Assembly: GCA_903821695.1 (NCBI GenBank)
Contig: CAIJLX010000103.1
Coordinates: 1 to 47,962, forward strand
Source of the DNA: an uncultured Alphaproteobacteria bacterium
GTDB taxonomy: Bacteria > Pseudomonadota > Alphaproteobacteria > Rickettsiales > CAIJLX01
Length of the DNA: 47,962 nt
Direction: 5' to 3'
In this document: in pieces, positions 6,629-46,088 of the stretch
Position numbering within the stretch: the first letter of the stretch is position 1
Layout: each line of letters opens with the position of its first letter
Made by a program: the position numbers and the translations under genes
The notes under the pieces: generated by a model
Seen by the model: the letters and a program-made list of their open reading frames with translations, nothing else
Databases searched by the model: none
What the model was told of the DNA's origin: nothing

Positions 6629-6630
6629 AA

Positions 6631-11571: not shown

Positions 11572-11598
11572 TATAATAGAAAGGCCTATCTGTTATAG
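11571..11598. promoter_or_regulatory. 28-bp imperfect palindrome at the start of the ISP gene
   Basis: CTATAATAGA at 11571-11580 and TCTGTTATAG at 11589-11598 are inverted copies with one mismatch around a centre AAGGCCTA. The element touches the GTG start codon, a position typical of an operator that blocks transcription or translation. It may limit expression of the restriction enzyme. The binding protein is unknown. Confidence 0.4.
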
Positions 11599-11644
11599 TT
11601 AACTCTTCTGATGTGCCCTTTAATTAGCATTTTATGTGCGGGCA

Positions 11645-11691
11645 CATTCCTAAACGCCAGATCGGATGTTCGAATCATCTCGGTCCCACCA
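11645..11691 (+). pseudogene. tRNA 3' half with intact T arm and CCA
   Basis: TTCCTAAAC at 11647-11655 is followed by a perfect T arm GGATG-TTCGAAT-CATCT (11664-11680), the acceptor strand CGGTCCC, discriminator A and an encoded CCA ending at 11691. No acceptor 5' strand (GGGACCG) or D arm precedes it. This is the 3' half of a tRNA, most likely Arg(CCT) from the TTCCTAA loop. Such fragments are left or carried by elements that integrate in tRNA genes. It is not a functional tRNA. Confidence 0.6.
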
Positions 11692-11695
11692 ACTT

Positions 11696-28916: not shown

Positions 28917-31704
28917 TTTGCTCGCCACGTATGCGTTCGAGGGCAGGAAGGCTGGACCAGTGGATGCAAAATTCAGATTCCTCACTATCCGCAGTACGAC
29001 GATTGGCACAGCGAAATTGCTCCGCCTGTGTTGTAGAAAATGTGATGGTTTTTTCTTGCCAGGGATCTCTCTTCTGTCCGGTTTGTGCTTTGAGGCGAAT
29101 CTGGTTCCATTGGTGATCAAGCTTGGCCATTTCTGCATTTGCCAGGGAAGTAATCCCTAAGGCATTCCGAGCATCTTGTATGTTCATCCATTCTTGTGTT
29201 TTCCAATGCGAAAAACGGTCTTTCCACCACATTGCCGCTTCTTGTTCAGTAGCTGCTTTATGGATTTCATATAGCGGCTTGAGAAGTTCTGGGGATACGG
29301 CAAAATCAACTCCGTCACCAGCTGGTTTATGGAAGAATCCCATATCAGAAACAGGGAGCGTATGTCCTTTGACTTCAATAGAAGTCGTACCAGGCGGGCG
29401 GTCAAGATAGGCATCGATAATATCGCCTATAAGCTGATCAAATTCAGGGTCTGCGCCGTTTCCTGCTACATATTTTCGTGCCAGAAATTCTGGCAAAAAT
29501 TCTGGTGGGCGTTGTTTCACTGCACCAAACAAGGCATTTTTACACAGACTAATGAGTCCTTTATCAATGCAAAAATACTCCTCTTCTCCAACTTTATAAT
29601 TACCTATTCGCCAAACAGGAAAAGGCTGCTGGCGAACAGAGATGTCCTCTATACTGACCATTTTATCTCTTGCCTCGCGGATTTGATACGCGGCTGCCAA
29701 GGGTTCATATAAACGACGCTGCAGGCGCTCCTTTTCTCGTTCAAAGCGCTCTGGCTTTATGTCTGGATTAATCTCACGGACCATTTCCTCGCAGGTGAGC
29801 ATCTCTTTAGTCTTTATTGGCGGGTTTCTGCCCATTTTTTGGCGGAAAATTTGGTATTCTTTTTCGTTCGTAATAATGGTTGGAACTTCGTCTACGCTGA
29901 CCCACGTGCGAGGGTCGCGGCTTTTGTTTTTATGACCTTCAGTTGGGCCAAATTCAAAATCTTTTGGAATGATGACGATGCCACCTGCTAACTCTCCAAA
30001 TATATATTGTTCGAGGCCGGCGATCAGGAAGGTAATGATGTTGGCAATTTTTGTCGGTTGCTCGAGATTTAAACGCATCACTCGCCCACCCTGTTGCAGA
30101 ATGCGGCTGGGGGAGCGCGAGGGGCAGAGTTGGAAACATAACTCTGCTTCACGGTCATCGAACCCTCGGACCATGAGTAAATTATTCGTCAGTGCCATGG
30201 TATCTTTATTACGGAAGCGCGTAATAACGGCGTTAATTTCCTCATCATCCATGCGGCCACTCACCGCTTCTGCATAACGTATCCGTTTTACACCATCTTC
30301 CTCTATGAAAAAATCTTCCCAGTCTTTCTTTTCTTCGGGATGGCTTTTCAAATAGGCTTCAATGCCAAGGTTAATTTTATCCGCCACCGTATTCGCATGG
30401 CCCACATTAGCACAATACCATACGGATTTCATGTCGATATAGGGTTTGCCAGTACCCGGATCGCAGCCATTTAAGAGCACTTTAACCGCGATATCATCGA
30501 TACCGGACAGTTGCGCCATTCTTTCAAGCTCGCGATCAGTATAATCCAGATCGCTATCGCTAATTTCCGGATTGAGTTTTTTTGTGCGTTCTTTGGCCGC
30601 GTTTATAATTGCAGCCACACCAGAGCGGTTTTTTTCTGGAACATCTACCTCCATGGCAATATTGCGCATGGGGCTAATCTCCTTGAAATTTACTGCTTCC
30701 TGGAACGGAGTTTCAAAGGCAGGTTTTAATCCGCCAAAAACATAATCTCCTGTTGTTTTGCCATTACGATACAGGTGCGTCGCGGTTAATCCCAATGTCA
30801 GGCACTCGGGTAAAATAAATTCGTGGATATAACGACTGGTTGCATCTCCGCGCGGACGGTCGTCGACTTCATCCAACAAAACAATGGTCGTCGCTTTGGG
30901 GTTTGCTTTCTTCTCATTGTTAAGGGCTTCAAGAAAATGTTGCTGCAGCTGAAAACGTTTTTCTTCATTTAGAAAATCGGTCGCCAATAAATCGGACAAT
31001 GTATCTATCGCAACATTCGGTAATTTCGCATCATGAATCATATCGAATAAACGATAGAGATTTTCTTGTTCTACAATGTCCTGCGATAATATGTTTTCTA
31101 TTTCGTTGCGAGCCCTCTGAGGCACTTTATTGTCCTCAAGTAAATCCAACACATTACGTCTTGTTATTGCACTACAACCAATGGTCGGTGGTTGATGATT
31201 GGCCAATATCCGCCCTGAATCATACGTGATGAGCACAATCGGTTTTTGCAAAGCAGCTTCTTTTTCTTCAAACTTTTGCGATGCACGGTATACACCGACA
31301 TATTCTGGTTTGATGGAAGGGAAATTGCCGCGCCGTCTGCCACCTTTTCCATCCGGAAGACCCAATAATTCTTCTTCCCATCGATCCAGCAATAAATTGG
31401 TGGGAACATGGATAATAGATCTGCGCCCTTGTGTTGGGTGACCAAGCACAAAAGTCTCACTCTCGGGAAGCGTATTCATTCCGATAATCATCACAACACC
31501 GCTCGTGGTCTTGCCAGTACCCGTAGGGCTTACTCCATAACCATAATTCACCCGCGTGCCCAGTATTGGATTGATTTCCCTAAAATACTTGCAGGTTTCA
31601 AGGCCCCTTTGTTTTTGTGGTGGCCGCGAAATATTTTCGTCACGCATCAGATGTGCGTAGTAACGACGTATTAAAGTGTTAATTTCTGTAATATCGCAGG
31701 ACAT
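28879..31704 (-). CDS. Superfamily 2 helicase/translocase, 941 aa
   Basis: A 941-residue protein with SF2 motifs: Walker A SPTGTGKTT at 59-67, motif Ia region SIIHVPTNLLLDRWEEEL, Walker B D278EVD (a valine variant of DEAD/DEAH), motif III GLTAT, and motif VI Q537QGGRVMR. About 400 residues beyond the helicase core have no domain I recognise. The ATG at 31704 overlaps the giant gene stop (TAATG) and has GGAG six bases upstream. It is the middle gene of giant protein-helicase-HTH, so it presumably acts with the giant protein on DNA or RNA. The family resembles DEAD-type helicases of large defence systems, but I cannot place it in a named one. Confidence 0.8.
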   Translation of the reverse strand: MSCDITEINTLIRRYYAHLMRDENISRPPQKQRGLETCKYFREINPILGTRVNYGYGVSPTGTGKTTSGVVMIIGMNTLPESETFVLGHPTQGRRSIIHVPTNLLLDRWEEELLGLPDGKGGRRRGNFPSIKPEYVGVYRASQKFEEKEAALQKPIVLITYDSGRILANHQPPTIGCSAITRRNVLDLLEDNKVPQRARNEIENILSQDIVEQENLYRLFDMIHDAKLPNVAIDTLSDLLATDFLNEEKRFQLQQHFLEALNNEKKANPKATTIVLLDEVDDRPRGDATSRYIHEFILPECLTLGLTATHLYRNGKTTGDYVFGGLKPAFETPFQEAVNFKEISPMRNIAMEVDVPEKNRSGVAAIINAAKERTKKLNPEISDSDLDYTDRELERMAQLSGIDDIAVKVLLNGCDPGTGKPYIDMKSVWYCANVGHANTVADKINLGIEAYLKSHPEEKKDWEDFFIEEDGVKRIRYAEAVSGRMDDEEINAVITRFRNKDTMALTNNLLMVRGFDDREAELCFQLCPSRSPSRILQQGGRVMRLNLEQPTKIANIITFLIAGLEQYIFGELAGGIVIIPKDFEFGPTEGHKNKSRDPRTWVSVDEVPTIITNEKEYQIFRQKMGRNPPIKTKEMLTCEEMVREINPDIKPERFEREKERLQRRLYEPLAAAYQIREARDKMVSIEDISVRQQPFPVWRIGNYKVGEEEYFCIDKGLISLCKNALFGAVKQRPPEFLPEFLARKYVAGNGADPEFDQLIGDIIDAYLDRPPGTTSIEVKGHTLPVSDMGFFHKPAGDGVDFAVSPELLKPLYEIHKAATEQEAAMWWKDRFSHWKTQEWMNIQDARNALGITSLANAEMAKLDHQWNQIRLKAQTGQKRDPWQEKTITFSTTQAEQFRCANRRTADSEESEFCIHWSSLPALERIRGEQNDPGPATGRSKT

Positions 31705-34700
31705 TACATTCTCCACCCTGGATCACCAGGATTACTTCGCATTCTATCAATAACTTCTCTCGATACCCTTTGCAGCTCTCTTAGATCTTTGAGATTAGAG
31801 TTGCCATTCGATGCGGAACCTTTTTTAACAGGGTCAGGAATGCCATGGTCGCTGCCAAAAATAACTTCAAGATTGCTTTTTGTTGCATGCGCCAACCAGT
31901 CTTTCGGTTTGTCAGCATTAAATGGTGGGTGTCTCTGATCTATAAAAAACTGAGGGCCCAACTCTTTTGCAGCGAGCACTTCCTGTCTTAGTTCTACATA
32001 GGGGGACGAACTAGTGAATGGAGTACTCGGCATAAGAGGAGAATAATGCAATCCGGCGAGCAAGCTTAAATGCTCTGCAACTGTCTCCTCGAATGAATGA
32101 ATCATATCACTATACTTTTGTGGTATGAGGCGCGTTTCGGTTACAGGCGCACCTGTAGTGTCAAGGTGCGGCTCCAGTTTCCCATCGCGTCTACCGCGCA
32201 TGACAGAAAATGTAACGGGAATAGGTCCATCTTTATCTTGTGGGTTTACTCTATCCATTCTGACACTCAAATCATGTTCAAAACGAGGTATCAAATCCCA
32301 GACAAATCGATCTAATCGCACATAATCCATGTCACCACGCACATAAGATTCCACTAAATCTGCCTTTTTTTCTGGAACGGCGAAGAATAATTCTAAATTC
32401 TCACCTTTGGTATTTTTCACGATGACAAACAGATCATCTGATTGCTTCTGCTGAATTTGTACTCGTATGGTAACGAGCCCATATTCTGGTTCTTCGCGCA
32501 CAATATTGAGACGATACGACATATTATCGGCCGGCAATTCATTTTTTATCATCTGACGATAAAGATGAATCTGCTCCTTGCTTAAAACCTCACTCACTTC
32601 TTTTTGCACGTTTCCAGCCAATTCCTTGGTCGATTCGCCACCCTCTCCCTTCTTCTCTACCAGCAGCCATCGCGCCTGTGGACGTTGCTCAAAATAATCC
32701 TGCAGCATGTAAACAAGACCCATCGCTTTATCGCTGCCGAAAATAACTTCTTGCACTCGCGAACGTGCCATTTCTGGATCTTCAATGCCAAGGTTCATGC
32801 CCCGGGTGCGAATAAGATATCCGGCAGAGGTATTATTCACCGGATCGTCATTAACATGCAAAGTGAACTTCAAATGATAGGTTTGGTTACTTCCCCCTTT
32901 GCTCATCGCCATAGCTCCAAGCATCATATTCTGAGGCTTGTTTTGAATCTCATCAAGGCTAGGAATTGGAACAGGCGTATGACGATATTGTCCGTAACCA
33001 ATTTCAGTTAGCGCCCATTTCCAATTCACCCAATCGTCTTCTTTGTCGACAACGACTACTCTTGGAAGCGCATCTTCTGCTGCTTTTAATGCCTTGTCCC
33101 TATCATCGCTTTTTGGAAGCTCTAAGAGAAGTTGATAGGCAGGATCAGTGGCCCCCAAATATGCCTTTTTGAGCCCATCGGTTATTAGCAACTCAATATG
33201 TTCCGGAGTTGCCCAATACCCATTGGGATTTTGAGGATCAACCACACGAATTTCCGCCACTATATTTTCCAGATGGCCTTGAATTTCCCGCTTAATAGGT
33301 ATTTTACGACGCTTCGCATTCGGTGGGTTATAATCATCGATAAATTTCTCTATGATCCCCATTCTTTCCTTAGCAATAAGTTCCGCCGCCGCAGCTTCTG
33401 CTTCAGTCCCATTGCCATTGATTTTCTTCACACCGAGCGGAAAAACAATCGTTACCTTGTCTCCATTTTTCGTATATTGCGCAGTCAGTTCTAGTTGATA
33501 TATTCCAGCATTGCTAACTTTAAGCGCAGTTTCGCGGTCGTCTTTATTGATAGCTCGGTTGGGAATAAAATCATCTTTGGTAATGCGCGGTTTGCCACTC
33601 GTTGTTTTTCCAAAAATAGGCAAAAAATCACCATTGGCTGCGATTTCACCATTAACAATAATCTGTAAATTTAATGCATCCAGCGATGTAGGAGTAACTC
33701 CCAGGCGCGCATAACCTTCAAGATATTGCATGCTATTCAGATCGAATATTTTTGAATAAGGCAATTTCCCCGCCTCATCGCTTTTAAAAAACAGGCGAAC
33801 ACGTGCATGGGTTTTATCAACCAGCAAATCACAGCGATATTGATTATATCCATTGTCTTTTGCTGTCATCGCCACATAAAGTGCGTCAACCGAAAGCTGC
33901 TCTGACATTGCTTCATAAGCCCGGGCACGGCGCGAATTCAGCTCTTCCGGCGATAATGCCGGGTCATTCTGTAAACGTGATTCGAAAATTCGTTTGGAAC
34001 CTTCTAATGCCTCTTCTGAATTCTCAGCGGGCGGCAATGCTTTCTTCTGCGGGGCTTTATTTGTCACCCCTTTGTTTCCATCAGCTTCTTCACCGGGAAG
34101 CTTTTCAGTAGATGTTGGAGTTGTAAGGGCAGTTTTTTGATCTTTTGCCTCAACTGCACCCTCATCTTCTTCTAATTTTTGATCCCTTTCCTCAGGTATA
34201 TTCTCATTTTTCTTTGGTTCTGGAGAAGAAGACTCAGAGTCCGCCTTCCCATTCTTTTCCAATGCCTTGCTAGTTTGCGCTTCTTCAGCGAGCAATAATT
34301 GTTCTGCAACGAAAGCACGTCTTGCTGCGATATCGGTCAGACCCAGCGCTTCTAAAATACGTTCTTTATCTCCGTATACACATGCAACTATGATTGGGCT
34401 TTCTGAAAGAACTTTCTTAAGCGGATGATCACTTGCTAGGATATTAGAAAGTTGAGTTTTCGCTGTTTTGCGCGCCTCATTAATGCCTTTATTTTTATTG
34501 CTCTCATCCCTTAGAGCAGCACTAATATTACCCGAAATTCCGGTTGAGGATGCTACAATTAATTTGCTCACCGGACCTTTAAACAGGGCGCCGCCCAACT
34601 GTTTATCTACCTCAATGTATGTATTCATATTTTGGCAAAGATTTTGCACTTCTGCTAGCAAAGCACGGTTGGCCTTTGGTGGAAATTCCAGGGTGTGCGT

Positions 34701-37700
34701 ATAAGGCGCCGGCTTGAGCGCTTCTTGAATGTTACGTTTAATGTCCCCATTGAGGGCAGCATATATTGTAGGGCAATCCCTATCTAAGGAATCAAGCAAA
34801 TCTCTGTGATTATCACGGAGTTTATTTTGTTTTAGTGGATCCGTATCCCTAATATTACCAATTTTTAGATTACTTGCCTCTTTCCATGCCCTTTGAGCGA
34901 ATTTTAGAGCTTCTAATGTAACGTTTTCTTTTAATACGTCACTCAGTGTCAATATTCTTTCTTGCTTTTTATCTGCAGCGACACCTTGGTAATCATGATA
35001 CATTATAGCCAATTTGACGACTGGATCTGCCAGTGCTGCCGTTCCCAGAGCTTGATGTAATGGAAGACCACAATCCAATTTACTACACAACCGATCAATT
35101 TCCTTGCGAAGTGCGGAATCAGCTTGCGCCGCAAGTTTTTGTTCTAATGAGAGGACATATGGTATCGGCAGATTAGGAATAGATGGTTGTGTGTGTTGAG
35201 AATCTTTTCCTGAACTTCCGTTGATAGGTATGGCAAGACTTGCATTTGCAATATGCTGCTCTGCAGCATATTGGTAAATATTCAGTATTTTTCTACATGC
35301 TGAATTATCGGCTTTTACTGTATCAATTTGATCGTATGCATGTGCAAGAACTGTTGCTTGGCAATGTTCTATTCCATGTTTCCACATTGCTCTTTCTATT
35401 TGTTGCGAAGAAAGGTGTGAGGGCAAGATGGCAAGAAATTCATTGAGTGCGGTTTCAAATAGCTTATTTTCAATATGAGGTTGAAGGGTTGCTACAAGAC
35501 CACTCGCAAATATGTGGCTTTTAAAGGCAGGATTATTGACGATAGTAACCGGAAGGGTAACATTTTTATTGCTTACATTTATCTCTACAAAGGGATGGCT
35601 GCCTGTAGTAAAACTCACCTCTTCATGAATAATGATGCGCTTTGCATAGTCAGGTACCTTTTCAAAAGCCTCCGCAAATCTTTGCTGCTGTTCTTCAGTT
35701 GCATTCTTTAATTCTGGCGATGGTTGTTTTTCTAACTCAGGCTGTTTGTCCGGTGTTTCTGCCTCACTCGCCGGATAAGGGGTCGGCGAGGTTGCGTCTT
35801 GTACATTTGCGCTAAGGCGCTCTTTTGCCGTTTCTTTGGATAACCGATCTGCTTCTACCTTTAAGGCTTCCATAAATTGATCGTAAAGCTGCAACCCATA
35901 AGGGTATATTTTTTCCGCGTTCTCTCTTCCGTTGGAAGAGATCTCTTCATGAATCCTCAAAAAATTATTAATATTTGTCAGCCGTGAGTTGCCAACGCCA
36001 ACCGCACGTATTACTTCTTTTTTTACTAGCTCCCATTTTAAATCTGGGGGCATTTTATTATGCATGGCGCAAAAGAGTGCATAAAACTTTGCCGGCACCT
36101 GGTCACGAGCACGATACTCTTCTCGATTACTATACCAAGTATCAATCTTCACTACTTTAGTCTCAGGATCATATGGAGATGTAGACTTATCTCGATTGTG
36201 CATCATTACGAAAGTAATGCCGCATGCTTGTATAAACTCTTTAACCCAAGGCTCCCATTTTTCGTATCCTGCCAGGAAAGTATCAATATCTTTCTGAGTT
36301 ACTTTTTTTGCGTATTTAGGATCTATGGTAATGTCAGGTGGCAATAGATTGGTATTAGGCGTTTCTGCCTCTACTTTATTTACATTCTGACTTCCCAACT
36401 GCTGCTTTTCTGCAAACTCTTTCGCCTTAAGCATGAATTCTTCATATAATGCCAAGGCTATAGGAGTAAGTCTTCTTGAAGTATTCAGATTGCCTGGTTT
36501 TTTCAAAGTATCATGAACATTTGCTAATATCTGTGATGGAGAAAGCTGCCGGGGATTGTTTTTTTGAAAGCCAGTAATTTTTTTGATTTCTAATACTGTC
36601 CCCCGCCATTTAGGGTTTTTTGTTACATCCTCCTCCATTACACAGAACATTGCATCAAACATCGCATTTGTTGGAGGGATATTATCCAGGCTTGATTGGA
36701 TATGAGTAGCAGAAATATGTACTTGTTTTAGAGCAATATCGTGTGATGTAAGTGGTTTGCCAGCTTGGTCATTTCTGATAACAAAGGTAACGTCAGCTAC
36801 CATTTTCTTAATCCAATCTTCCCAATTCTGGCAGCCCTGTACAAAAGAATGTATGTGCTCTGGTGTAACTTTTTCTCCATATTGCGGGTGGGGAATAACT
36901 TTAGGAATGAAAATAGATAGGGGGGCAGGTTTCTGTGCTTCTTCCCGCGTTGCAATAGGCGAGTCTGTCATTACTCCTTGCTGCGCTGCCCTATATGCAG
37001 CTTCTAAATAGATATTATAGACATCGGTACGCACGTCTAAAAGATCCGAAAATCTTGACTGATCGGCTGCATGCAAATCAATATAGGTGCCTGCTAAAAT
37101 TTCCGCGATCTTTCTTCCGCCTTTAAAATTTAACCTAACGACTTCCGGCTTTGCTAGGACCTCAAGCAGAGGTTTTTGGGCAGCAACTGGCTCTGTGTTT
37201 AGAATTGTTCTCTGTAAATGTTGGACCATTGCCTTATTTACTAATTCATCTTCAATGGCTGGTTTTAACGCGATCGCCAATCCATAACCAAAAATATATC
37301 CTGGCAATACGATTTCTGGCTGCTCTGTAAAGGCACTCGCTCTTATGGCAACAACATTATTTTGGGTGATGATCGTATTACCTTCGTCCAAATTCGGGTT
37401 CACCCTGAACTGAACGTTGCCTTTTTCGATCACTCTTTTAACTTCTGCAGTCAGTGTGCCCACCGCTGCATTAAATTGTTGCTTCTGCTCCGCTGTCGCG
37501 TTTGCTATTTTTATTGTTTCTGGCGCTATTATCCTTGGGATTGCAGCAATAGGAGTTTCTGGCAATTTAGAAGAGGCTTCGCGTGAAACCTCTGTTGGGA
37601 AAATAGGCGGCAAAGCATGATAATGTTCGTCTTTTTTGATTTGTTGCCTGAGATACTCCATACCAGCCTCATAAAGATCAGAGAGGCTTTCGGTTCGAGG

Positions 37701-40043
37701 CGGTATTGATAAAACAGGTGGATAGTGTGCGTCTATTTGTTGCTGAATATAAGCCATCCCAGCTTCATAAAAAGCAATGGCATTCTTAAAGTCATTTTTA
37801 ATAAATCGTTGCTGTTCCGGGTTTGTATAATTGTTCAGCGCAAAATGAATGTTTGCCAATGCTGTTATTGCCTCAAAGCGCGATAATTCTACTTGAGCAA
37901 TATGGGATGAGGCATTACCGAATATTAATTTATCCGTATGCGCCTGATTATAGTTTGTCACTTCCTTGTTTTTTTTCTTAAGAGCATATTCTGCTTTAGA
38001 ATATCCTGGCCCCAAATTTTTTAAAATTGGATCATCTATATTTAAATCACGCAATCTCTGCATAAGCATTAACGTTCTCGTCATCACCGTAGATATCAGA
38101 GTATCATCAATATCCTTGCCTAATAACAGTACAGGAACAAACATCAGAGTTTCATTGGCAGCAAATTCATAACTTGATAATACAATGGGCGCTCTTTCCC
38201 GTTGCATGACTCGGTCAATGCTTTCCGGCAATAAAGATGGGTGATCTCTAAAGTATGCCACTAATTTAGTGATTTCTTCTTCGCCGGGCTGTGGCCCATA
38301 TTTTTCATAAACTGGCGCAATGCTTTCTTTACACAGCCTTATTAACTCTTCGAGCGATGCATCGTCTTTTTTACAGTCTTTTAAACTCGCGATGGTTTGT
38401 AATTTAACTCGCTCGTTAGGGGTGAGTGGTGTGCCTTCCCTCTGCTCAGGCGGACCATCATTAACATAATACACTCTAGCAAACACATAGTCATACCCCC
38501 CCGCGTCTATGAGATGCAGAGTCCTATCAATTTTTGCACGGACCTTTTCTTTATCTTCAAGTTCGGAAGGCAGCAGAGAAAATAAACTGCTATTATATTG
38601 TACCCCCTCATTTTGTAATGCTTGCGCGACCGAGGAGACACCCATATCAAGATACACCACCGCGCAATAAGGCGTTACTATGTCACAGAGAGGAACTCTA
38701 AGCTGAGCAAATGAAGTGCTCTTAGTTCCCAGCATCACCCCAGATTGCGCAAGATCTACACTGGCATCAGCAACGGAGGGCTTTGTATTCTCCTTCGGTT
38801 GCCTATGCATTTCAGCAACTTGTTGGCTTACAAATTCCTGATACTGATTATAGGCATCAATGAGGTTTTCAATGGAAGGCTGTTGTAGCTTAAGTCTTTC
38901 TAAATCCGGGCTTGCAAGTATCGCTACGACCTGATCCATCAGTAGGGCACAATTATTTTCCATGCCGGGAAGGTTATCGAGGTGCATTTGGAAGCGCTCT
39001 AAAGAGCCACCCTTCGCATGGTATTCTATAGCCGCATCTTTAGCGCTTTTCCAATCGATGGAAGGCCCGGTTCCCAGAGCCGTAAGATAGGCAAAGAATT
39101 TAATGAACTGATGCCTATAAAGCAAAAATTCGGGCTCCTTTACCTCATTGATACGCTGACCAATGATCAGCTGGTTTCCTTTTGACGAAACTACGTCAGA
39201 AGAAGTGCTATCAAATACAATGCTCAAATTTTTCGATCCCAGTAGCTGCCTTTCTTTTTTGTCCCATTTTTTGATAACGTCATTGCAAAAGGTAACTACG
39301 GTTTCCGGCGGTATTGGCCCCACGATTTGAAAGCGAATCCCATTCATTCCCTCTTTCAATATGCGGTTTTTTTCTGCTTCGAGGGCATTCTTTGTCCTTG
39401 TTTGCACTTTCTTCATTAGCGCCATTTCTTCTTCCACAAAACGTGTGTACGTTTGGTAGAGTTTGACATTGTACGGAAGTGTAGTGGATTGTATTGAACC
39501 TTCTGCTGTCATCCGATGCAAAACTTCCTCAGCAGCTGTCAAAACAACCGCCTTTGATAGAGCGTTGGGTAATATCGATAATCCGGAATTACTAATAGGG
39601 ATTTGAATGGCCACACCATCCACGTTTACGGTGACGGACATTGGCTGACTTTTGGCAATATTCCAGCTCTCTTCCGACACAGGGCCATTCCCAAACACGG
39701 TAATTAAAACTGTAAACTTCAAACGAGATAAGGAATCGCTTTCATTTTCATAAGTTTTTATGGCGCTTTCTGCGATAAACAATAACTTCCTTCCTTGCAA
39801 CGCTTCTGGTGCTGGCGGCGTTTCTGTTGATCCATCTGGGACAATAATAATAGCGAGTCCATGATACGCAACCAATCGCCTTTCTTCTTCCTTCATTGCC
39901 TTGTTTAAAAGGCTAACAAAACGTGGCCCGCAATCGTTCGCTACACCAGGCGCCACTGCAAATAGTATCTGATCCCTATCAACCTGCTGGTTTGTTGCCT
40001 CAGGATTTCCTCCGTTGGCTTTCTGTTTTCTGGATCTGGACAT
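31704..40043 (-). CDS. Giant multidomain protein, 2779 aa, with repeated degenerate zincin-like modules
   Basis: A soluble 2779-residue protein. Repeats recur near residues 85-125, 290-330, 620-645, 897-930, 1105-1140, 1297-1330 and 1485-1525. Each has a beta strand (GRKLLFIAES, NNVVAIRAS, TKVVKIDTW), then a loop and a hydrophobic helix (FFAYLTALG, YIFGYGLAIAL, FYALFCAM). The pattern resembles anthrax lethal factor-like zincins, whose second part is HExxH; that motif is missing in every copy, so proteolysis is unlikely. A helical duplication (about 1645-1690 and 1796-1845) and an acidic, low-complexity linker (about 1920-2015) precede a ~760-residue alpha/beta C-terminus I do not recognise. 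I use the ATG at 40043 (AGGGAAATTAGAG upstream); an ATG at 40076 is possible. It leads the operon with the helicase. Confidence 0.75.
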   Translation of the reverse strand: MSRSRKQKANGGNPEATNQQVDRDQILFAVAPGVANDCGPRFVSLLNKAMKEEERRLVAYHGLAIIIVPDGSTETPPAPEALQGRKLLFIAESAIKTYENESDSLSRLKFTVLITVFGNGPVSEESWNIAKSQPMSVTVNVDGVAIQIPISNSGLSILPNALSKAVVLTAAEEVLHRMTAEGSIQSTTLPYNVKLYQTYTRFVEEEMALMKKVQTRTKNALEAEKNRILKEGMNGIRFQIVGPIPPETVVTFCNDVIKKWDKKERQLLGSKNLSIVFDSTSSDVVSSKGNQLIIGQRINEVKEPEFLLYRHQFIKFFAYLTALGTGPSIDWKSAKDAAIEYHAKGGSLERFQMHLDNLPGMENNCALLMDQVVAILASPDLERLKLQQPSIENLIDAYNQYQEFVSQQVAEMHRQPKENTKPSVADASVDLAQSGVMLGTKSTSFAQLRVPLCDIVTPYCAVVYLDMGVSSVAQALQNEGVQYNSSLFSLLPSELEDKEKVRAKIDRTLHLIDAGGYDYVFARVYYVNDGPPEQREGTPLTPNERVKLQTIASLKDCKKDDASLEELIRLCKESIAPVYEKYGPQPGEEEITKLVAYFRDHPSLLPESIDRVMQRERAPIVLSSYEFAANETLMFVPVLLLGKDIDDTLISTVMTRTLMLMQRLRDLNIDDPILKNLGPGYSKAEYALKKKNKEVTNYNQAHTDKLIFGNASSHIAQVELSRFEAITALANIHFALNNYTNPEQQRFIKNDFKNAIAFYEAGMAYIQQQIDAHYPPVLSIPPRTESLSDLYEAGMEYLRQQIKKDEHYHALPPIFPTEVSREASSKLPETPIAAIPRIIAPETIKIANATAEQKQQFNAAVGTLTAEVKRVIEKGNVQFRVNPNLDEGNTIITQNNVVAIRASAFTEQPEIVLPGYIFGYGLAIALKPAIEDELVNKAMVQHLQRTILNTEPVAAQKPLLEVLAKPEVVRLNFKGGRKIAEILAGTYIDLHAADQSRFSDLLDVRTDVYNIYLEAAYRAAQQGVMTDSPIATREEAQKPAPLSIFIPKVIPHPQYGEKVTPEHIHSFVQGCQNWEDWIKKMVADVTFVIRNDQAGKPLTSHDIALKQVHISATHIQSSLDNIPPTNAMFDAMFCVMEEDVTKNPKWRGTVLEIKKITGFQKNNPRQLSPSQILANVHDTLKKPGNLNTSRRLTPIALALYEEFMLKAKEFAEKQQLGSQNVNKVEAETPNTNLLPPDITIDPKYAKKVTQKDIDTFLAGYEKWEPWVKEFIQACGITFVMMHNRDKSTSPYDPETKVVKIDTWYSNREEYRARDQVPAKFYALFCAMHNKMPPDLKWELVKKEVIRAVGVGNSRLTNINNFLRIHEEISSNGRENAEKIYPYGLQLYDQFMEALKVEADRLSKETAKERLSANVQDATSPTPYPASEAETPDKQPELEKQPSPELKNATEEQQQRFAEAFEKVPDYAKRIIIHEEVSFTTGSHPFVEINVSNKNVTLPVTIVNNPAFKSHIFASGLVATLQPHIENKLFETALNEFLAILPSHLSSQQIERAMWKHGIEHCQATVLAHAYDQIDTVKADNSACRKILNIYQYAAEQHIANASLAIPINGSSGKDSQHTQPSIPNLPIPYVLSLEQKLAAQADSALRKEIDRLCSKLDCGLPLHQALGTAALADPVVKLAIMYHDYQGVAADKKQERILTLSDVLKENVTLEALKFAQRAWKEASNLKIGNIRDTDPLKQNKLRDNHRDLLDSLDRDCPTIYAALNGDIKRNIQEALKPAPYTHTLEFPPKANRALLAEVQNLCQNMNTYIEVDKQLGGALFKGPVSKLIVASSTGISGNISAALRDESNKNKGINEARKTAKTQLSNILASDHPLKKVLSESPIIVACVYGDKERILEALGLTDIAARRAFVAEQLLLAEEAQTSKALEKNGKADSESSSPEPKKNENIPEERDQKLEEDEGAVEAKDQKTALTTPTSTEKLPGEEADGNKGVTNKAPQKKALPPAENSEEALEGSKRIFESRLQNDPALSPEELNSRRARAYEAMSEQLSVDALYVAMTAKDNGYNQYRCDLLVDKTHARVRLFFKSDEAGKLPYSKIFDLNSMQYLEGYARLGVTPTSLDALNLQIIVNGEIAANGDFLPIFGKTTSGKPRITKDDFIPNRAINKDDRETALKVSNAGIYQLELTAQYTKNGDKVTIVFPLGVKKINGNGTEAEAAAAELIAKERMGIIEKFIDDYNPPNAKRRKIPIKREIQGHLENIVAEIRVVDPQNPNGYWATPEHIELLITDGLKKAYLGATDPAYQLLLELPKSDDRDKALKAAEDALPRVVVVDKEDDWVNWKWALTEIGYGQYRHTPVPIPSLDEIQNKPQNMMLGAMAMSKGGSNQTYHLKFTLHVNDDPVNNTSAGYLIRTRGMNLGIEDPEMARSRVQEVIFGSDKAMGLVYMLQDYFEQRPQARWLLVEKKGEGGESTKELAGNVQKEVSEVLSKEQIHLYRQMIKNELPADNMSYRLNIVREEPEYGLVTIRVQIQQKQSDDLFVIVKNTKGENLELFFAVPEKKADLVESYVRGDMDYVRLDRFVWDLIPRFEHDLSVRMDRVNPQDKDGPIPVTFSVMRGRRDGKLEPHLDTTGAPVTETRLIPQKYSDMIHSFEETVAEHLSLLAGLHYSPLMPSTPFTSSSPYVELRQEVLAAKELGPQFFIDQRHPPFNADKPKDWLAHATKSNLEVIFGSDHGIPDPVKKGSASNGNSNLKDLRELQRVSREVIDRMRSNPGDPGWRM

Positions 40044-40161
40044 CTCTAATTTCCCTATTGTTGGGGATCTTAGCATCGCAAGGTTAACAAAACGTTAAAT
40101 AGGCCCTCTCGAATGCAAAAAAATAGAAATATCAGTAACTTATTCATGAAAGGTAAAAATA

Positions 40162-40188
40162 AATTCCCTGTTATCTTTTTAGGGAATT
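40162..40188. repeat. Inverted repeat AATTCCCT-N11-AGGGAATT
   Basis: AATTCCCT at 40162-40169 and AGGGAATT at 40181-40188 are perfect inverted arms. The left arm belongs to TTCCCTGTTA, a word repeated on both sides of the recombinase module. A weaker copy, TTCCTGTTA, lies near 40200 and TTCCCTATTG at 40051, just before the giant gene start. They may bind the ParB-like, HTH or recombinase proteins. Confidence 0.5.
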
Positions 40189-40260
40189 CTTCTGCATTGT
40201 TCCTGTTATCCGCCATATTTTTTGTACATTTTAATAAAAAAACATCAAAAATGATAAAAT

Positions 40261-40299
40261 TTCCTCAATAATTCCCTATAATAGGGAATTATTGAGGAA
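40261..40299. repeat. Perfect 39-bp palindrome
   Basis: The arm TTCCTCAATAATTCCCTAT (40261-40279) is followed by one A and its exact inverse complement (40281-40299). No mismatch occurs in 19 paired bases. It carries TTCCCTAT, related to the nearby repeats. It lies upstream of the giant-protein operon, 218 bases before its start. It could be an operator, a recombination site or a replication hairpin. Confidence 0.85.
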
Positions 40300-40311
40300 G
40301 AGAGGTTAAAC

Positions 40312-40470
40312 ACTGGTCGCCACTGGTATATTCAATGACGACCAGTTGGCTGGCGATATGACTGCCAGCCTAGTGGGCTCCGAACGGGTTCACCGCCATC
40401 CCCACCACCGCGCTTGATCCGCATCTCGTGCGGCTTCTCCTGCGGTCCCGGCGTTTATGGGTCCCGGTCC
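40312..40470 (-). ncRNA. Candidate structured RNA or multi-hairpin site
   Basis: Three hairpins follow each other: ACTGGTCG (40312-40319) with CGACCAGT (40339-40346), GGCTGGC (40348-40354) with GCCAGCC (40364-40370), and CCGCA (40419-40423) with TGCGG (40429-40433). The stretch is much richer in GC than the DNA around it and lies between the RepB-like gene and the giant operon. It may be a small RNA, a terminator region or part of an attachment site. Strand is uncertain; minus is chosen to match the neighbours. Apart from this, 40077-40494 holds only the repeats already listed. Confidence 0.35.
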
Positions 40471-40494
40471 CCAGCTTAAAACCTTACATCCCCC

Positions 40495-41418
40495 TCATAA
40501 AGCTTTGTCGCGGCCACCTAGTGAAGTCATCTCCGTTATTTTCTGAAATTCTGTTAGATATTCAGGATGATGTTGCGCGATATATTTGACAATACGAGCA
40601 TTGTTGAGCAGCGTAGAAATGTATGTTCTGGCGACTGTAAGCGTTAATACATTCGGCCCAAAACTATCTTCGATCAGCTGATATTGTCCCTGTAGGCTTC
40701 CCATTTCCGCTTCCATCCGGGACATCTGTTCCGTGTTGAGGCCTCTTACCTTCTTTGGTTTTAATGGATCAACCAATTGAGCATGAGGTGTAGCAGCCAA
40801 AAGCGCCTGCATGAAATTCAGGGAATAAATATTGGCATCTCGCATCAAAGTGGCAGCTTCAATTTGCCTTAGAGGCTTCATGCGTCTCATAATTTTAAAC
40901 ACATGGGTTGCAACCATTTTATTTTTCAGCAAGTCGGCGGCTTCGGAACATATTCCGTTTAATAAATCTCGTTTAAATATAATATTTTTTACGTTCAGAT
41001 TGAGTGCGCGCGCCAGCTTCTCTTCTGACACGCCTCGCTTTACTGCCTGCACAACCATACGGTGTTCCTGAATCGGCGAAAGGCGGCTGATATGCTTATT
41101 ATAGGTAAAGGATTCATCATCAGTAGAGACAAGGCAAATGATTTCTTGTTCTCCAATTTCTCTCAAAGCCTCAAGACGCAGATGCCCATCCAGGAGCATA
41201 TATTGGGTCTGTCCTCGACTGGGCGATGCTACGATCGGTGGTTCAATGATTCCAATTTCACGAATGGAAGCAACAATCTGGTGGAACTTTTCACTTTCAC
41301 GAATAGCCGGTGTGACTATTTTTAGTGGGAAAATATCTTTCAGTTGCAGCGTAACAGTGTCTGATGCAAAGCCGATTTTGATATTACTCACTAGTTTTGC
41401 CTGTTGTGCCCGGAGCAT
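40495..41418 (-). CDS. RepB-type plasmid partition protein homologue
   Basis: A 307-residue ParB-superfamily protein. The ParB/Srx N-terminal domain includes ESEKFHQIVASIREIGIIEPPIV and YMLLDGHLRLEALREIG, then an HTH part (LARALNLNVKNIIFKRDLL). The C-terminus (MSRMEAEMGSLQGQYQLI, then FGPNVLTLTVARTYISTLL) is of the RepB type found in alphaproteobacterial recombinase modules. The start is three bases after the ParB stop with AAGGAG upstream. No ParA ATPase or replication initiator is nearby, so it likely serves the recombinase module rather than classic partition. Confidence 0.82.
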   Translation of the reverse strand: MLRAQQAKLVSNIKIGFASDTVTLQLKDIFPLKIVTPAIRESEKFHQIVASIREIGIIEPPIVASPSRGQTQYMLLDGHLRLEALREIGEQEIICLVSTDDESFTYNKHISRLSPIQEHRMVVQAVKRGVSEEKLARALNLNVKNIIFKRDLLNGICSEAADLLKNKMVATHVFKIMRRMKPLRQIEAATLMRDANIYSLNFMQALLAATPHAQLVDPLKPKKVRGLNTEQMSRMEAEMGSLQGQYQLIEDSFGPNVLTLTVARTYISTLLNNARIVKYIAQHHPEYLTEFQKITEMTSLGGRDKAL

Positions 41419-41421
41419 GGA

Positions 41422-42315
41422 TCAAAACTCCTTAGCTGATATCAAAGCTGCCAACTGTTTTGGCATACTATCCAAACTCTCTGCGCGAAGCAGAGTGGTA
41501 AAGTGTTCCTCCTGCAACAGACATCGCATGGCCTCCTTCAGAAACACTAGACGGTTGTTTACAACGTCAGCTTTTCGTTCCAACAATTGTTTCCGGCTTA
41601 CTTCTCGCCTATATGTTTTGATAATATCTTGACCGTAATCGCCGATAGTGTGGGAGCGGCTTTTCTTTTTGGAGCTCCGCAATGTTTTTCCCCAATTTGT
41701 ACGATTCTCTAACAGCTGCTTGGCAGCCATGAATTTATTGCCACTGAGTTGCCCTGTTTCATAGGCGCCTTGTAATGCTACTTGCTCATTTTTGGGTGAT
41801 TGCACGATATTGATTGCAAGCGTAATAGGAATACTACCGGACTCGACCGCTGTTACTAGCCGCTCTTCACCCTGTTCGAGTAGTAGAATCAGATTATTGA
41901 TATACTCCGTTGAATAACCAATTTTAGCAGCGATGGTTTTGGCATCATATCCCTGCTTGCGCAGTATCTCCACACCTTGCAGTAAATCGATAGGTCTGTG
42001 TCTACGGCGAGCAATGTTTTCAACCAAGCCCATAATCAGCGCTTGTTCTTCACTGGCATCAATTACCATCGCTGGAATCATTGTCTGGCCCCAAGCCATA
42101 AATGCTTCGAGCCGACCCTGTCCACATACCAGATCGTAGTCTTTACCGTCCGTTTTGGAATGAGAGGGCATGACCGTAATTGGACGCTTAAGACCAACTT
42201 TTGCAATATTCTGCACTACAGCATCAAATAATTTGGGATTACGTGTGCGAGGATTAAGTACATTGATTCGGTCTACAGGAATCACCTGGATAGACATATG
42301 CCTCTGCCTACTCAT
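41422..42315 (-). CDS. ParB-like nuclease/partition domain protein
   Basis: A 297-residue protein with the ParB N-terminal domain (VIPVDRINVLNPRTRNPKLF, LVCGQGRLEAFMAWG, GLVENIARRRHRPIDLL) and the central HTH (KTIAAKIGYSTEYINNLILLLEQG). The C-terminal dimer part is helical. Start overlaps the recombinase stop (ATGA) with GAGG upstream, so translation is coupled. Together with the RepB-like gene it follows the serine recombinase in one operon, an arrangement seen repeatedly in alphaproteobacteria. The pair probably binds specific repeats near the recombination site; TTCCCTGTTA is a candidate. Confidence 0.85.
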   Translation of the reverse strand: MSRQRHMSIQVIPVDRINVLNPRTRNPKLFDAVVQNIAKVGLKRPITVMPSHSKTDGKDYDLVCGQGRLEAFMAWGQTMIPAMVIDASEEQALIMGLVENIARRRHRPIDLLQGVEILRKQGYDAKTIAAKIGYSTEYINNLILLLEQGEERLVTAVESGSIPITLAINIVQSPKNEQVALQGAYETGQLSGNKFMAAKQLLENRTNWGKTLRSSKKKSRSHTIGDYGQDIIKTYRREVSRKQLLERKADVVNNRLVFLKEAMRCLLQEEHFTTLLRAESLDSMPKQLAALISAKEF

Positions 42316-43880
42316 GAGACGTCCTCTATGCGCACTCGCTCCGTCAGGAGAAAAAATACCTCCAGATCATCAAAACGATACGCATCCAATGCGAGGCCAT
42401 TATTCTCAGCCAGACGCATCTTGGGGTTTTCAATATCAAGCGCTGGTAGCAGATAATAGTCGAATGCCTTCTCATTTGCCGCATCCATACGGATAACAAT
42501 CGTAATATCCGGAAGTAATCCGCTATCGAGATGTATTTTCCAGCGATAATCGCCGCCTTTGGTATGGTGGCAGCGACAGATTACTATCGAAGCTCGTAGC
42601 TCCTCATTAATAATGATCAATTCAGAAGTTTTCTCCTGGCGTACATATCCTCCCAGATCTTGAATCTTACGGATAGTGTCATCGATGACGCTGCCGTGCA
42701 ATTTACGCAAGCGGCGATTGATTTCTATAAAACTATAGTCATGATCCGGCGTGAAACCAATCAGCTCATAGGCCCGGATTAAGCTGCCAAACCGATGCTG
42801 ATAGGCGCTGCTAGAGGGCATATTCTCAGACTCATTAATAACAACTCCGGACAACCAACCATGTTGTTCATGTAGTTTGCGTAGTTTTTCTAGCATTTCC
42901 TCATCGCTAAATTTTCGACCGCGTTCGCGGATGATTCCTTGTGCCGTGAAAAAATAACGAGGCTCAACAATGGCCTCAAACACCCCATCTTTGCGCACCC
43001 ACATATCCGGTACGTTAACCACACGCCGTTTTTTGAGCTTAAAAGACGTTCGATTGAATATATTATTGCCAATATACTTCTCGTTGGTCAGTACTTCATG
43101 CACAGTACTACGAGTCCAGGGGCGATCGAGATCTGTTAATACGCCCCGCTGATTGAGAATAGCTGCGATCTGGCTTTCCTGCATTCCTTCTTCGGTGAAT
43201 GCACGGTACATCCATTGTACGTTTTCGACTTCATCAGGTGGTCCCGGCACCAGAATAACCCGATCCGTCTGCAAACTCTTGTGCTCTCCGCGTTTCAGTG
43301 CTGCCTTCTGTTGCCCGTGTTCATCAATAAGCACGCGTCGCAATCCATAACCTGCTGGTCCACCCTGACGATAGCCAAGTTCAATCAAGCGACATTGCCC
43401 GGCAAATACTTTTGTGGAGAGTTCCCGGCTGTATTCACCCGCCATCGCACGCTTGACGCCCTTAACGATGGTAGATACGGGACTACCATCATTCTCAAAT
43501 TGCTCAGCAACATATTGGACATCAATACCCGCCCGGCGGCAGATATATTCATAATAAGCACTCTCGTCTGCATCTTGAAAGCGGCCCCAGCGCGTGACAT
43601 CCAGCACCAGAATCATCGTAAAAGCAGCAACACCCGACTGTACATCATCAATCAGCTTCTTAAGCGCGTCCCGACCATCCATGCTAAGGCCGCTTTTTCC
43701 GGAATCAGTATAGGTCTCTATGATTTCAATATGGTGCCGGTCCGCATACTCACGAATGGCATCGCCCTGATTCTCCGTAGAGTACTTTTGATGGTCCGTA
43801 GACATGCGCACATACATGGCAGCCCGTCGGATAGGGGAAGGAACATCGCGTGTATTGTTACTATTTTTGTCCACAGTCAT
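42312..43880 (-). CDS. Serine recombinase of the recombinase-ParB-RepB module
   Basis: A 522-residue recombinase. The resolvase domain has RRAAMYVRMSTDHQ with the catalytic serine at about 27, followed by YTDSGKSGL, LVLDVTRWGR and EYSRELSTKVF. The recombinase domain follows (EKYIGNNIFNRTSFKLKKR). The C-terminal ~150 residues are specific to this module. It differs clearly from the other serine recombinase at 2011-3663. It heads the operon with the two ParB-type genes and is divergent from an HTH gene. Only a weak ribosome binding signal precedes the ATG at 43880. Confidence 0.88.
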   Translation of the reverse strand: MTVDKNSNNTRDVPSPIRRAAMYVRMSTDHQKYSTENQGDAIREYADRHHIEIIETYTDSGKSGLSMDGRDALKKLIDDVQSGVAAFTMILVLDVTRWGRFQDADESAYYEYICRRAGIDVQYVAEQFENDGSPVSTIVKGVKRAMAGEYSRELSTKVFAGQCRLIELGYRQGGPAGYGLRRVLIDEHGQQKAALKRGEHKSLQTDRVILVPGPPDEVENVQWMYRAFTEEGMQESQIAAILNQRGVLTDLDRPWTRSTVHEVLTNEKYIGNNIFNRTSFKLKKRRVVNVPDMWVRKDGVFEAIVEPRYFFTAQGIIRERGRKFSDEEMLEKLRKLHEQHGWLSGVVINESENMPSSSAYQHRFGSLIRAYELIGFTPDHDYSFIEINRRLRKLHGSVIDDTIRKIQDLGGYVRQEKTSELIIINEELRASIVICRCHHTKGGDYRWKIHLDSGLLPDITIVIRMDAANEKAFDYYLLPALDIENPKMRLAENNGLALDAYRFDDLEVFFLLTERVRIEDVS

Positions 43881-43954
43881 AGTCCGCCATAAGAATGTCG
43901 CTGAATCACAGCAGCTTGGTTGATCTCCATAAATTATATTATTGGAGAAACCTC

Positions 43955-44545
43955 ATGTCCCTTGCTAAAAATGACCAAATTTTAACATCCGCGATTACGG
44001 ATAAAAAACTCGCCTTCTTGATTCAGAAAATACTACGGCAAGAATATAAAAATCAGAGTTCAGCCGTAAAACGAATAGGCAAAAAAACGGGTATTGAATT
44101 ACGGGCTATACGCGATTGGTATGAAGGTCGAAAGCCGCCAAAATCAACGCATCTCTTGATACTTGCCTGCCACTATCCACAGCTATTACCTGAAATTATG
44201 AAATCGATTGGTCAGGTTGATTTATGGGCAATGCCTGAGCAAGGTTTTGGTGCTCACAACACCTACCCACGCCAGTTAGAAAATGTGCCTCATGACAAAA
44301 TTTATAGTGCAAGATCTTGCACTATAAATGTAACCTTCGATATCGAGAAGGGTGGAAAATTAAACCAGAGGCAATTATGGTTTCTGGGATTACTACAGCA
44401 GGGGTATAAAGTAAGGAGCGTCGATATCATGGCTGTTTGGAAAGCATCTGCTAGGGCAGCTAAATATGATATTGAGGGACTGGTAGGTCTAGAACTAATT
44501 CGTTTCATCGGTTCCCGCAAAACCGGGTACTATGAAGCCACATGA
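43955..44545 (+). CDS. HTH regulator divergent from the recombinase, 196 aa
   Basis: I start at the ATG at 43955, preceded by GGAGAAACCTC. The 196-residue product has an N-terminal HTH-like region (SAVKRIGKKTGIELRAIRDWYEGRKPPK) and a C-terminal part with RQLWFLGLLQQGYKVRSVDI resembling a second DNA-binding domain. It is placed to regulate the divergent recombinase operon. The coding sequence contains a perfect 30-bp palindrome (44300-44329), encoding KIYSARSCTIN, between the two domains. No named family is certain. Confidence 0.7.
   Translation: MSLAKNDQILTSAITDKKLAFLIQKILRQEYKNQSSAVKRIGKKTGIELRAIRDWYEGRKPPKSTHLLILACHYPQLLPEIMKSIGQVDLWAMPEQGFGAHNTYPRQLENVPHDKIYSARSCTINVTFDIEKGGKLNQRQLWFLGLLQQGYKVRSVDIMAVWKASARAAKYDIEGLVGLELIRFIGSRKTGYYEAT
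44300..44329. repeat. Perfect 30-bp palindrome inside the HTH gene
   Basis: The arm ATTTATAGTGCAAGA (44300-44314) is followed without spacer by its exact inverse complement (44315-44329). It lies within the coding sequence, between the N-terminal HTH and the C-terminal domain. It may be an autoregulatory or recombination site; coding for a flexible linker would allow it. Confidence 0.85.
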
Positions 44546-44546
44546 G

Positions 44547-44674
44547 TTCCCTGTTAATTCCCTGTTATCATTTTAATGAAATCAAGTAAAAGCCAGTATT
44601 TCCCTACGTTTTAGAGATTCCTTCTACAAAACTTTCCTGTTATTTTCAGAAATTCCCTGTATTTTTCCCTGTAA
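44547..44674 (+). repeat. Cluster of TTCCCTGTTA direct repeats
   Basis: Exact copies lie at 44547-44556 and 44558-44567, 11 bases apart (one helical turn). Variants lie at 44633-44642 (TTTCCTGTTA), 44653-44661 (TTCCCTGTA) and 44665-44674 (TTCCCTGTAA), plus TTCCCTACG near 44600. All have the same orientation. They begin directly after the HTH gene. Copies also lie at 40164 and 40200 on the far side of the recombinase module. They behave like iterons or module-end binding sites. Confidence 0.7.
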
Positions 44675-44772
44675 CGGACCTAAGACAGGTTCGGCGCAGA
44701 CTACTTACACCACCAACAAAATCAAGGGTTTGCGAAGAATCCCCCAACAGAAAGACACCCCTTGCGGGACAC

Positions 44773-44908
44773 TTCGGGGACACAAACTGACAAAACATAG
44801 CAACCAGCAGTCACAAGAAGCTGCTGTAAGCATTTCTATAGAACCATCCATTATTCCTCACTTTGGCGATGTAAATCTTTCACTGGATGTCCCCATAGTG
44901 TCCCCGAA
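44773..44908. repeat. 11-bp inverted repeat upstream of the tyrosine integrase
   Basis: TTCGGGGACAC at 44773-44783 and GTGTCCCCGAA at 44898-44908 are perfect inverse copies, 114 bases apart and 124 bases before the integrase start. Such pairs can be integrase arm-binding sites. 44675-45032 shows no other feature; a 66-residue open frame here looks accidental. Confidence 0.45.
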
Positions 44909-45032
44909 ATGGGTGTGCCACAACAAATAGCAAGTAAAACACTCATATATTCTAGCGCGACAAGGGGATTATGTAACCTATTGTCAATTGTTGTCTTTTA
45001 TTGTAGCTTGCGTTCAACAGTGAGGAGCGCAC

Positions 45033-46088
45033 ATGGCAAGCATAGAAAAAAGAATACACGGTGAGAGTATTACCTACAGGGTAAAAGTGCGTTTGAAGGG
45101 ACACCCATTGCAGACAGCAACCTTTGAACGGATCACAGATGCAAAGAACTGGGCGAAGATAACCGAAGGCGCGATTAAGGATGGGCGACACTTCCGTAAC
45201 ACGGAAGCAAAGAAGCGCACGCTGGGCGAACTGATTGACCGCTATGTGAAAGATATTCTGCCAACAAAGCCGAAGAGCGAAAAGAAGCTGCGCTTGCAAC
45301 TGGGATGGTGGAAGCAGGAATTGGGGAGTTATTTTCTTGTTGATATTACCCCCGCGCTGATAGGCGAAAAGCGTGACCAGTTATTAGGCGAAACCACGCG
45401 CTTTAAAAAGAAGCGCAGCAATGCAACGGTGGTGCGTTATCTCGCCGCGTTATCTCATGTGCTGAGTGTTGCTGTGAAAGAATTGGGCTGGTTAGACGAT
45501 ACGCCTATGCGGAAGGTGCGGAAGCCGAAAGAATCACGGGGGCGTGTGCGCTTCCTTTCCGAAATAGAGCGCAAAGCGTTATTAGAAGCGTGCAAGCAAT
45601 CCGAAAACGCGCACCTATACACCATTGTGGTGCTGGCACTTAGTACAGGTATGCGGAAGGGCGAGATAATGAATCTGCGCTGGGATGATGTGAACCTGAA
45701 AGAGGGCTATATCATCCTGCATGAAACAAAGAATGGTGAACGCCGCCGTGTGCCACTGGCAAGCCACGCGTTAGAGTGCATCAAGGCAATGGATAAGGTG
45801 CGGCGCATTGATACGCCCCTGCTATTCCCAAGCGAAAGAAAGAGCGTGCAAAGCTATTTTTGGAAGCGTTGGTTGAAGGCGATAAAAGAAGCAGGGATTG
45901 AGGATTTCCGCTTCCATGATTTACGCCACACCACCGCAAGCTACCTTGCCATGAACGGTGCAAGCATTGCCGAAATTGCAGAAGTACTAGGGCATAAAAC
46001 CCTGCAAATGGTAAAACGCTACAGCCACCTTTCTGAAGGACATACCAGCAAAGTGGTGGAGAGCATGAATCGGAGGATATTTGGATGA
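45033..46088 (+). CDS. Tyrosine site-specific integrase
   Basis: A 351-residue phage-type integrase. An N-terminal arm-binding domain (about 1-65) is followed by a SAM-like core-binding domain and the catalytic domain with R208 (STGMRKGEI), K233, H295-D-L-R298 (FHDLRHT), H321 (GHKTL) and nucleophile Y330 (RYSHLSE). GAGGAGCGCAC precedes the ATG at 45033. The stop overlaps the next gene (ATGA). It would move the element by strand exchange at a short core, typically a tRNA end; I see no intact att core next to it. Confidence 0.92.
   Translation: MASIEKRIHGESITYRVKVRLKGHPLQTATFERITDAKNWAKITEGAIKDGRHFRNTEAKKRTLGELIDRYVKDILPTKPKSEKKLRLQLGWWKQELGSYFLVDITPALIGEKRDQLLGETTRFKKKRSNATVVRYLAALSHVLSVAVKELGWLDDTPMRKVRKPKESRGRVRFLSEIERKALLEACKQSENAHLYTIVVLALSTGMRKGEIMNLRWDDVNLKEGYIILHETKNGERRRVPLASHALECIKAMDKVRRIDTPLLFPSERKSVQSYFWKRWLKAIKEAGIEDFRFHDLRHTTASYLAMNGASIAEIAEVLGHKTLQMVKRYSHLSEGHTSKVVESMNRRIFG

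Follow-up and report, generated by a model that had tools for sequence, protein, structure and literature searches.

A TTCCCTG element beside a serine recombinase/ParB/RepB module in Alphaproteobacteria: a candidate attachment-type DNA site, with a structured RNA at the RepB end

The locus and its module

The window analysed in this study is the whole stretch of 47,962 nucleotides of contig CAIJLX010000103.1 from an uncultured Alphaproteobacteria bacterium (Rickettsiales; assembly GCA_903821695.1). Its features of interest are as follows.

40157–40306, plus strand (same direction as the right copy): degenerate second copy of the TTCCCTG element; profile E 3.6e-5
40261–40475, minus strand: structured RNA 3' of RepB, conserved part 40371–40475; covariation, model E 5.9e-20, fold z −7.4
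40495–41418, minus strand: RepB-like protein (weak ParB_N; RepB, PF07506)
41422–42315, minus strand: ParB/RepB-like protein
42312–43880, minus strand: large serine recombinase (Resolvase plus Recombinase), the only copy in this genome
43895–44545, plus strand: small HTH-like protein, divergent, a conserved module member; HTH assigned by inspection and synteny
44547–44715, plus strand: complete TTCCCTG element (arm words, spacer, inner words, core and CACCACCA box); leave-window-out profile E 1e-20, with C39, C59 and relatives alike
44547–44567, plus strand: two outer arm words TTCCCTGTTA, 11 bp apart, starting 1 bp past the HTH stop codon
44633–44674, plus strand: inner arm words TTTCCTGTTA, TTCCCTGTAT and TTCCCTGTAA
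44682–44702, plus strand: core AAGACAGG-TTCGGCG-CAGACT, imperfect inverted halves around 7 bp
44708–44715, plus strand: CACCACCA box
44766–44911, no strand assigned: GGGACA-type inverted repeats between the core and the integrase
45033–46088, plus strand: tyrosine integrase beyond the core of the element

The module of HTH, serine recombinase, ParB and RepB genes is conserved across Proteobacteria. Very close relatives of the window module (60–80% identity) were found across the phylum and on plasmids; unlike the window, most of them lack the TTCCCTG element. The small HTH-like protein had no Pfam match, and literature searches gave no description of such a module. A defence-system reading of the module proteins was rejected, with one weak match to a methyltransferase model and nothing else. 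The HTH reading frame contains a perfect 30-bp palindrome, ATTTATAGTGCAAGA/TCTTGCACTATAAAT, at 44300–44329. On the far side of the module, positions 31704–40076 (minus strand) hold an open reading frame of 2790 aa; searched as two pieces, it matched nothing in Pfam or NCBIfam.

The structured RNA 3' of RepB

The RNA profile detected 53 loci. In all 52 with RepB mapped, the RNA lies on the same strand, 6–74 nt past the RepB stop codon. RNAalifold on 44 RNA sequences gave 25 pairs, 14 of which carry compensatory double changes, and the fold z of −7.4 was obtained for the window RNA including its palindrome. The last hairpin of the RNA is this 39-bp palindrome (40261–40299), which is followed by a T-rich stretch. 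The preliminary description had listed the palindrome among places with words related to the repeats. It is present, and it can be read either as the inner words of the degenerate element or as the terminal hairpin of the RNA; the latter, at the 3' end, explains it better.

Of the 289 genomes in the class sample, 13 had the RNA, mostly together with RepB or a RepB remnant; at G180:C40 and G291:C129, RepB was not detected beside it. A search for a divergent RNA in other modules, among them betaproteobacterial ones, gave no match up to E 1. Rfam 15 gave no RNA match in the window at gathering thresholds apart from a distant tRNA, and only a chance-level snoRNA match over 40050–44800 up to E 5. 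Lying at the end of the ParB/RepB operon, the RNA is thus a well-supported structured family absent from Rfam 15. At L317 (5930–6056) and L319 (4325–4448), the modules are identical up to one hairpin loop of the RNA and different beyond it; this switch within the loop is a possible exchange point. With a serine recombinase and two ParB-like proteins next to it, the RNA raises the question of its role.

The TTCCCTG element and its distribution

In the window, exact TTCCCTGTTA occurs at 40164, 44547 and 44558, one-mismatch copies occur at 44633 (TTTCCTGTTA) and 44665 (TTCCCTGTAA), and a TTCCCTG word lies at 44653. At 40200 the word, TTCCTGTTA, lacks one base. The word at 40051, TTCCCTATTG, was set aside as a repeat because it falls within the first codons of the adjacent open reading frame (start 40076, minus strand). 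One-mismatch matches in the window numbered 9, against 3.0 ± 1.9 expected, and 1 of 100 shuffles reached 9. Single words are only modestly above chance; their arrangement is not chance. In the whole genome, seven exact copies of TTCCCTGTTA were counted, against one for the reversed control, and five of the seven lie within three composite elements (C39, C59 and C103) or the left copy. The same array with the same kind of core recurs at two further places in the genome, C39 (~5.1–5.3 kb) and C59 (~26.6–26.8 kb). Among the literature matches listed for the motif word, all were unrelated.

A profile was built from 54 elements with the window left out. It matched 44531–44718 (E 1e-20) and 40157–40306 (E 3.6e-5), both on the plus strand. 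Because the words cluster and this profile matches both flanks, the repeats of the preliminary description are real and not chance, with 40200 and 40051 corrected as above; the 11-bp spacing of the words at 44547 and 44558 was also correct. The match on the left flank, together with that on the right, therefore places the module between two copies, and the repeats frame the recombinase module as had been proposed, the left copy being degenerate. Its best-kept part is 40162–40188 (AATTCCCTGTTATCTTTTTAGGGAATT), and its word distance is 94 bp, near the 93-bp class described below.

The architecture is common to more than 90 distinct elements, each about 200 bp long. The consensus order is outer TTCCCTG(T/A)TA words, often with an inverted AGGGAA partner, then a spacer, inner TTCCCTGTATTTTCCCTGATAAACAGGGAA words, the core GAGACTGG-TTCGCNN-CAGACT, and CACCRCCA. 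By inspection, five of the six positions are complementary between the core halves. From core start to CACCACCA box start, the distance is 26 bp in nearly all elements in which both were found, and from the inner words to the core it is mostly 34–38 bp. Of 33 filtered elements, 32 have their outer and inner words 82–85 bp apart and one has them 93 bp apart, and the spacer is poorly conserved in sequence despite this near-fixed length. A looser scan (n = 31) also gave 93 bp (six elements), 71 bp and 62–64 bp; a step of "one helical turn" for these exceptional spacings rests on few elements. The circular spacing test was equally strong for all periods from 9.5 to 11.5, and it shows fixed spacing only, not a helical period. 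RNAalifold on 20 elements gave six pairs and no compensatory change. An RNA fold of the element was rejected for want of covariation, and the element is therefore regarded as a DNA site.

The distribution was searched with a sequence-only model of the right half of the element. Within the same order, 19 of 88 genomes gave a match, and so did 49 of 289 sampled alphaproteobacterial genomes (17%), mostly without the module. In the phylum sample, 28 of 398 genomes matched, 26 of them in Alphaproteobacteria and two, weakly, in another class. The element is commoner than expected among genomes that carry the RNA (6 of 13 versus 49 of 289 overall; p ~0.012). In about 15 pairs of copies no more than 40 kb apart on one contig, all pairs had the same direction by our own count.

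The main rival reading takes the element for a passive repeat, similar to a MITE or REP, that is dispersed between genes and happens to mark insertion-prone neutral gaps. Genomes with the element have one to six copies at dispersed places, many of them flanked by ordinary genes and some at contig ends, as such a repeat would predict. Near-fixed word spacing across a poorly conserved spacer would be unexpected for it, as would a class-wide arm-plus-core layout and the one-sided module and recombinase neighbours described below. By eye, terminal inverted repeats and target duplications were not seen. We consider a passive repeat unlikely.

Neighbours of the element and the attachment-site reading

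In Alphaproteobacteria, about ten module loci or module remnants carry the element beside their HTH end, with the arm side inward and the core always outward. The loci are as follows.

Window: element 1 bp from HTH
L035: 16 bp
L238 (remnant): 17 bp
L038 (truncated): HTH stop codon within the first arm word
L315: element 25 bp from the HTH end
L056: arms next to the HTH end, core pointing away
L317 and L319 (one and the same module, 99.8% identical): ~200 bp from the HTH end
L041 (= L316): ~640 bp from the HTH end
L374: element beside the module; HTH not found
L117 and L077 (besides the loci above): element farther from the module

No other inspected module has a copy of the element on the RepB side. 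The comparison of flanks in other genomes thus has two sides: the element stands beside HTH in these loci and is absent from most module flanks, and the motif was rejected as a general feature of the module. The earlier proposal that the repeats are module ends holds in part. In its favour, the element abuts the HTH end with its core outward and is built like a recombination site; against it, the left copy is degenerate, other RepB-side copies were not seen and most modules have no element. G729 and G731 are 98% alike across the element and its right flank, and their homology ends ~100 bp to the left of the arms. The element thus behaves as chromosomal DNA there, a pattern that fits a chromosomal site with variable arm-side content, not a simple element end. 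In same-genus genomes, the flanks were too rearranged for the junction to be read, or the genus consisted of one genome.

The preliminary description had also offered the words as binding sites of the module's own proteins; such sites would be operators of the HTH protein or parS-like sites of the ParB/RepB proteins. ParB proteins bind inverted repeats, and the words adjoin the HTH gene in the module loci listed above. The distribution speaks against this proposal: the module's RNA marker is missing from 43 of the 49 element-bearing genomes of the class, and the element is missing from most modules whose ParB/RepB proteins are very similar, although a parS site is expected wherever the module is. 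The proposal also gives no role to the core and the box. We regard it as quite improbable.

On the core side, a tyrosine integrase is present in the window, L239 and L035 (truncated), and another recombinase in L317, L237 and L370; most elements have no integrase nearby. The recombinase of the latter three loci is a recurrent second serine-recombinase type (L317, 2–1432; L237, right of the element; L370, 7406–8920). Three differing core-side integrase types argue against TTCCCTG being simply the arm site of one integrase. The GGGACA-type repeats at 44766–44911 are candidate arm sites of the integrase at 45033. Duplicated or solo cores were rejected as marks of element ends, being rare and inconsistent; other core repeats are whole elements or a few isolated cores. 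A family of ~400 aa (RELYxLVW...PRGYWARK) recurs near elements, at L077 (5810–7015), L279 (10929–12128) and L290 (518–1726), and its L279 member has no Pfam match.

In other lineages, module-bearing elements have an end at, or lie close to, the 3' end of a tmRNA or tRNA-Met gene. Those at L183–L198 (near 6255–12100) have common sharp ends and extend ~5.8 kb from a tmRNA 3' end, and in a Rhodobacterales group the start lies at the 3' end of a tRNA-Met gene. Within 8 kb of modules, 19 of 22 tRNAs point toward the module. Because modules of other lineages begin at tmRNA or tRNA-Met 3' ends and tRNAs face the module, the element occupies the place taken elsewhere by tRNA-type targets. It might accordingly be asked whether the element belongs to a small RNA gene, as its 5' region or its body, with integrases targeting the 3' end of that gene as they do in tRNA genes. 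Besides this shared place, the core looks in outline like a T-arm followed by a CCA end (GGTTC...CACCACCA). Neither covariation nor an Rfam match was found for the element, and inspection showed no convincing T-stem pairing in the core. A small RNA gene is very improbable.

On balance, we consider it somewhat probable that this real and dispersed element serves as an attachment-type DNA site and an integration hot spot. Sequence comparison shows the architecture, the spacing rule, the dispersal, the same direction of close copies and the recurrent module and recombinase neighbours, each on its own side; this attachment-site reading would account for them. The TTCCCTG half-sites, direct and inverted and at near-fixed distance, would load a protein and bend the DNA. 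Bending would make the neighbouring core, with its imperfect inverted halves around 7 bp followed by CACCRCCA, a target for recombination, with crossover presumably in the core. Integrative elements would then join and accumulate, the HTH/serine-recombinase/ParB/RepB/RNA module on the arm side and elements with an integrase or the second recombinase on the core side.

The cores of lambda-type att sites have an overlap of 7 bp between imperfect inverted halves. The element resembles lambda-type attP, attL and attR in that short arm words keep set distances to a core made of imperfect inverted halves. It differs in that the arms are found on one side only, that solo copies occur without an integrase and several integrase types stand beside it, and that no second core repeat was found in the window genome (core unique at up to three mismatches) or on the contig of the L239 integrase element. 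The arm-type plus core-type layout of lambda att sites spans 240 bp (PMC4880445). Like the hot spots at tRNA and tmRNA 3' ends, the element is a conserved target at which different integrative elements would dock; unlike them, it is not a tRNA, is conserved as DNA without RNA pairing and has a conserved arm array.

The module may be a self-contained mobile unit whose serine recombinase, two ParB-like proteins and RNA work jointly, docking through the TTCCCTG element at one end and carrying the RNA at the other; we consider this improbable. If the attachment-site reading is true, mobile DNA in Alphaproteobacteria would have a recognisable docking site other than tRNA genes, which one profile suffices to find, and the contents of such docking sites could be listed genome by genome.
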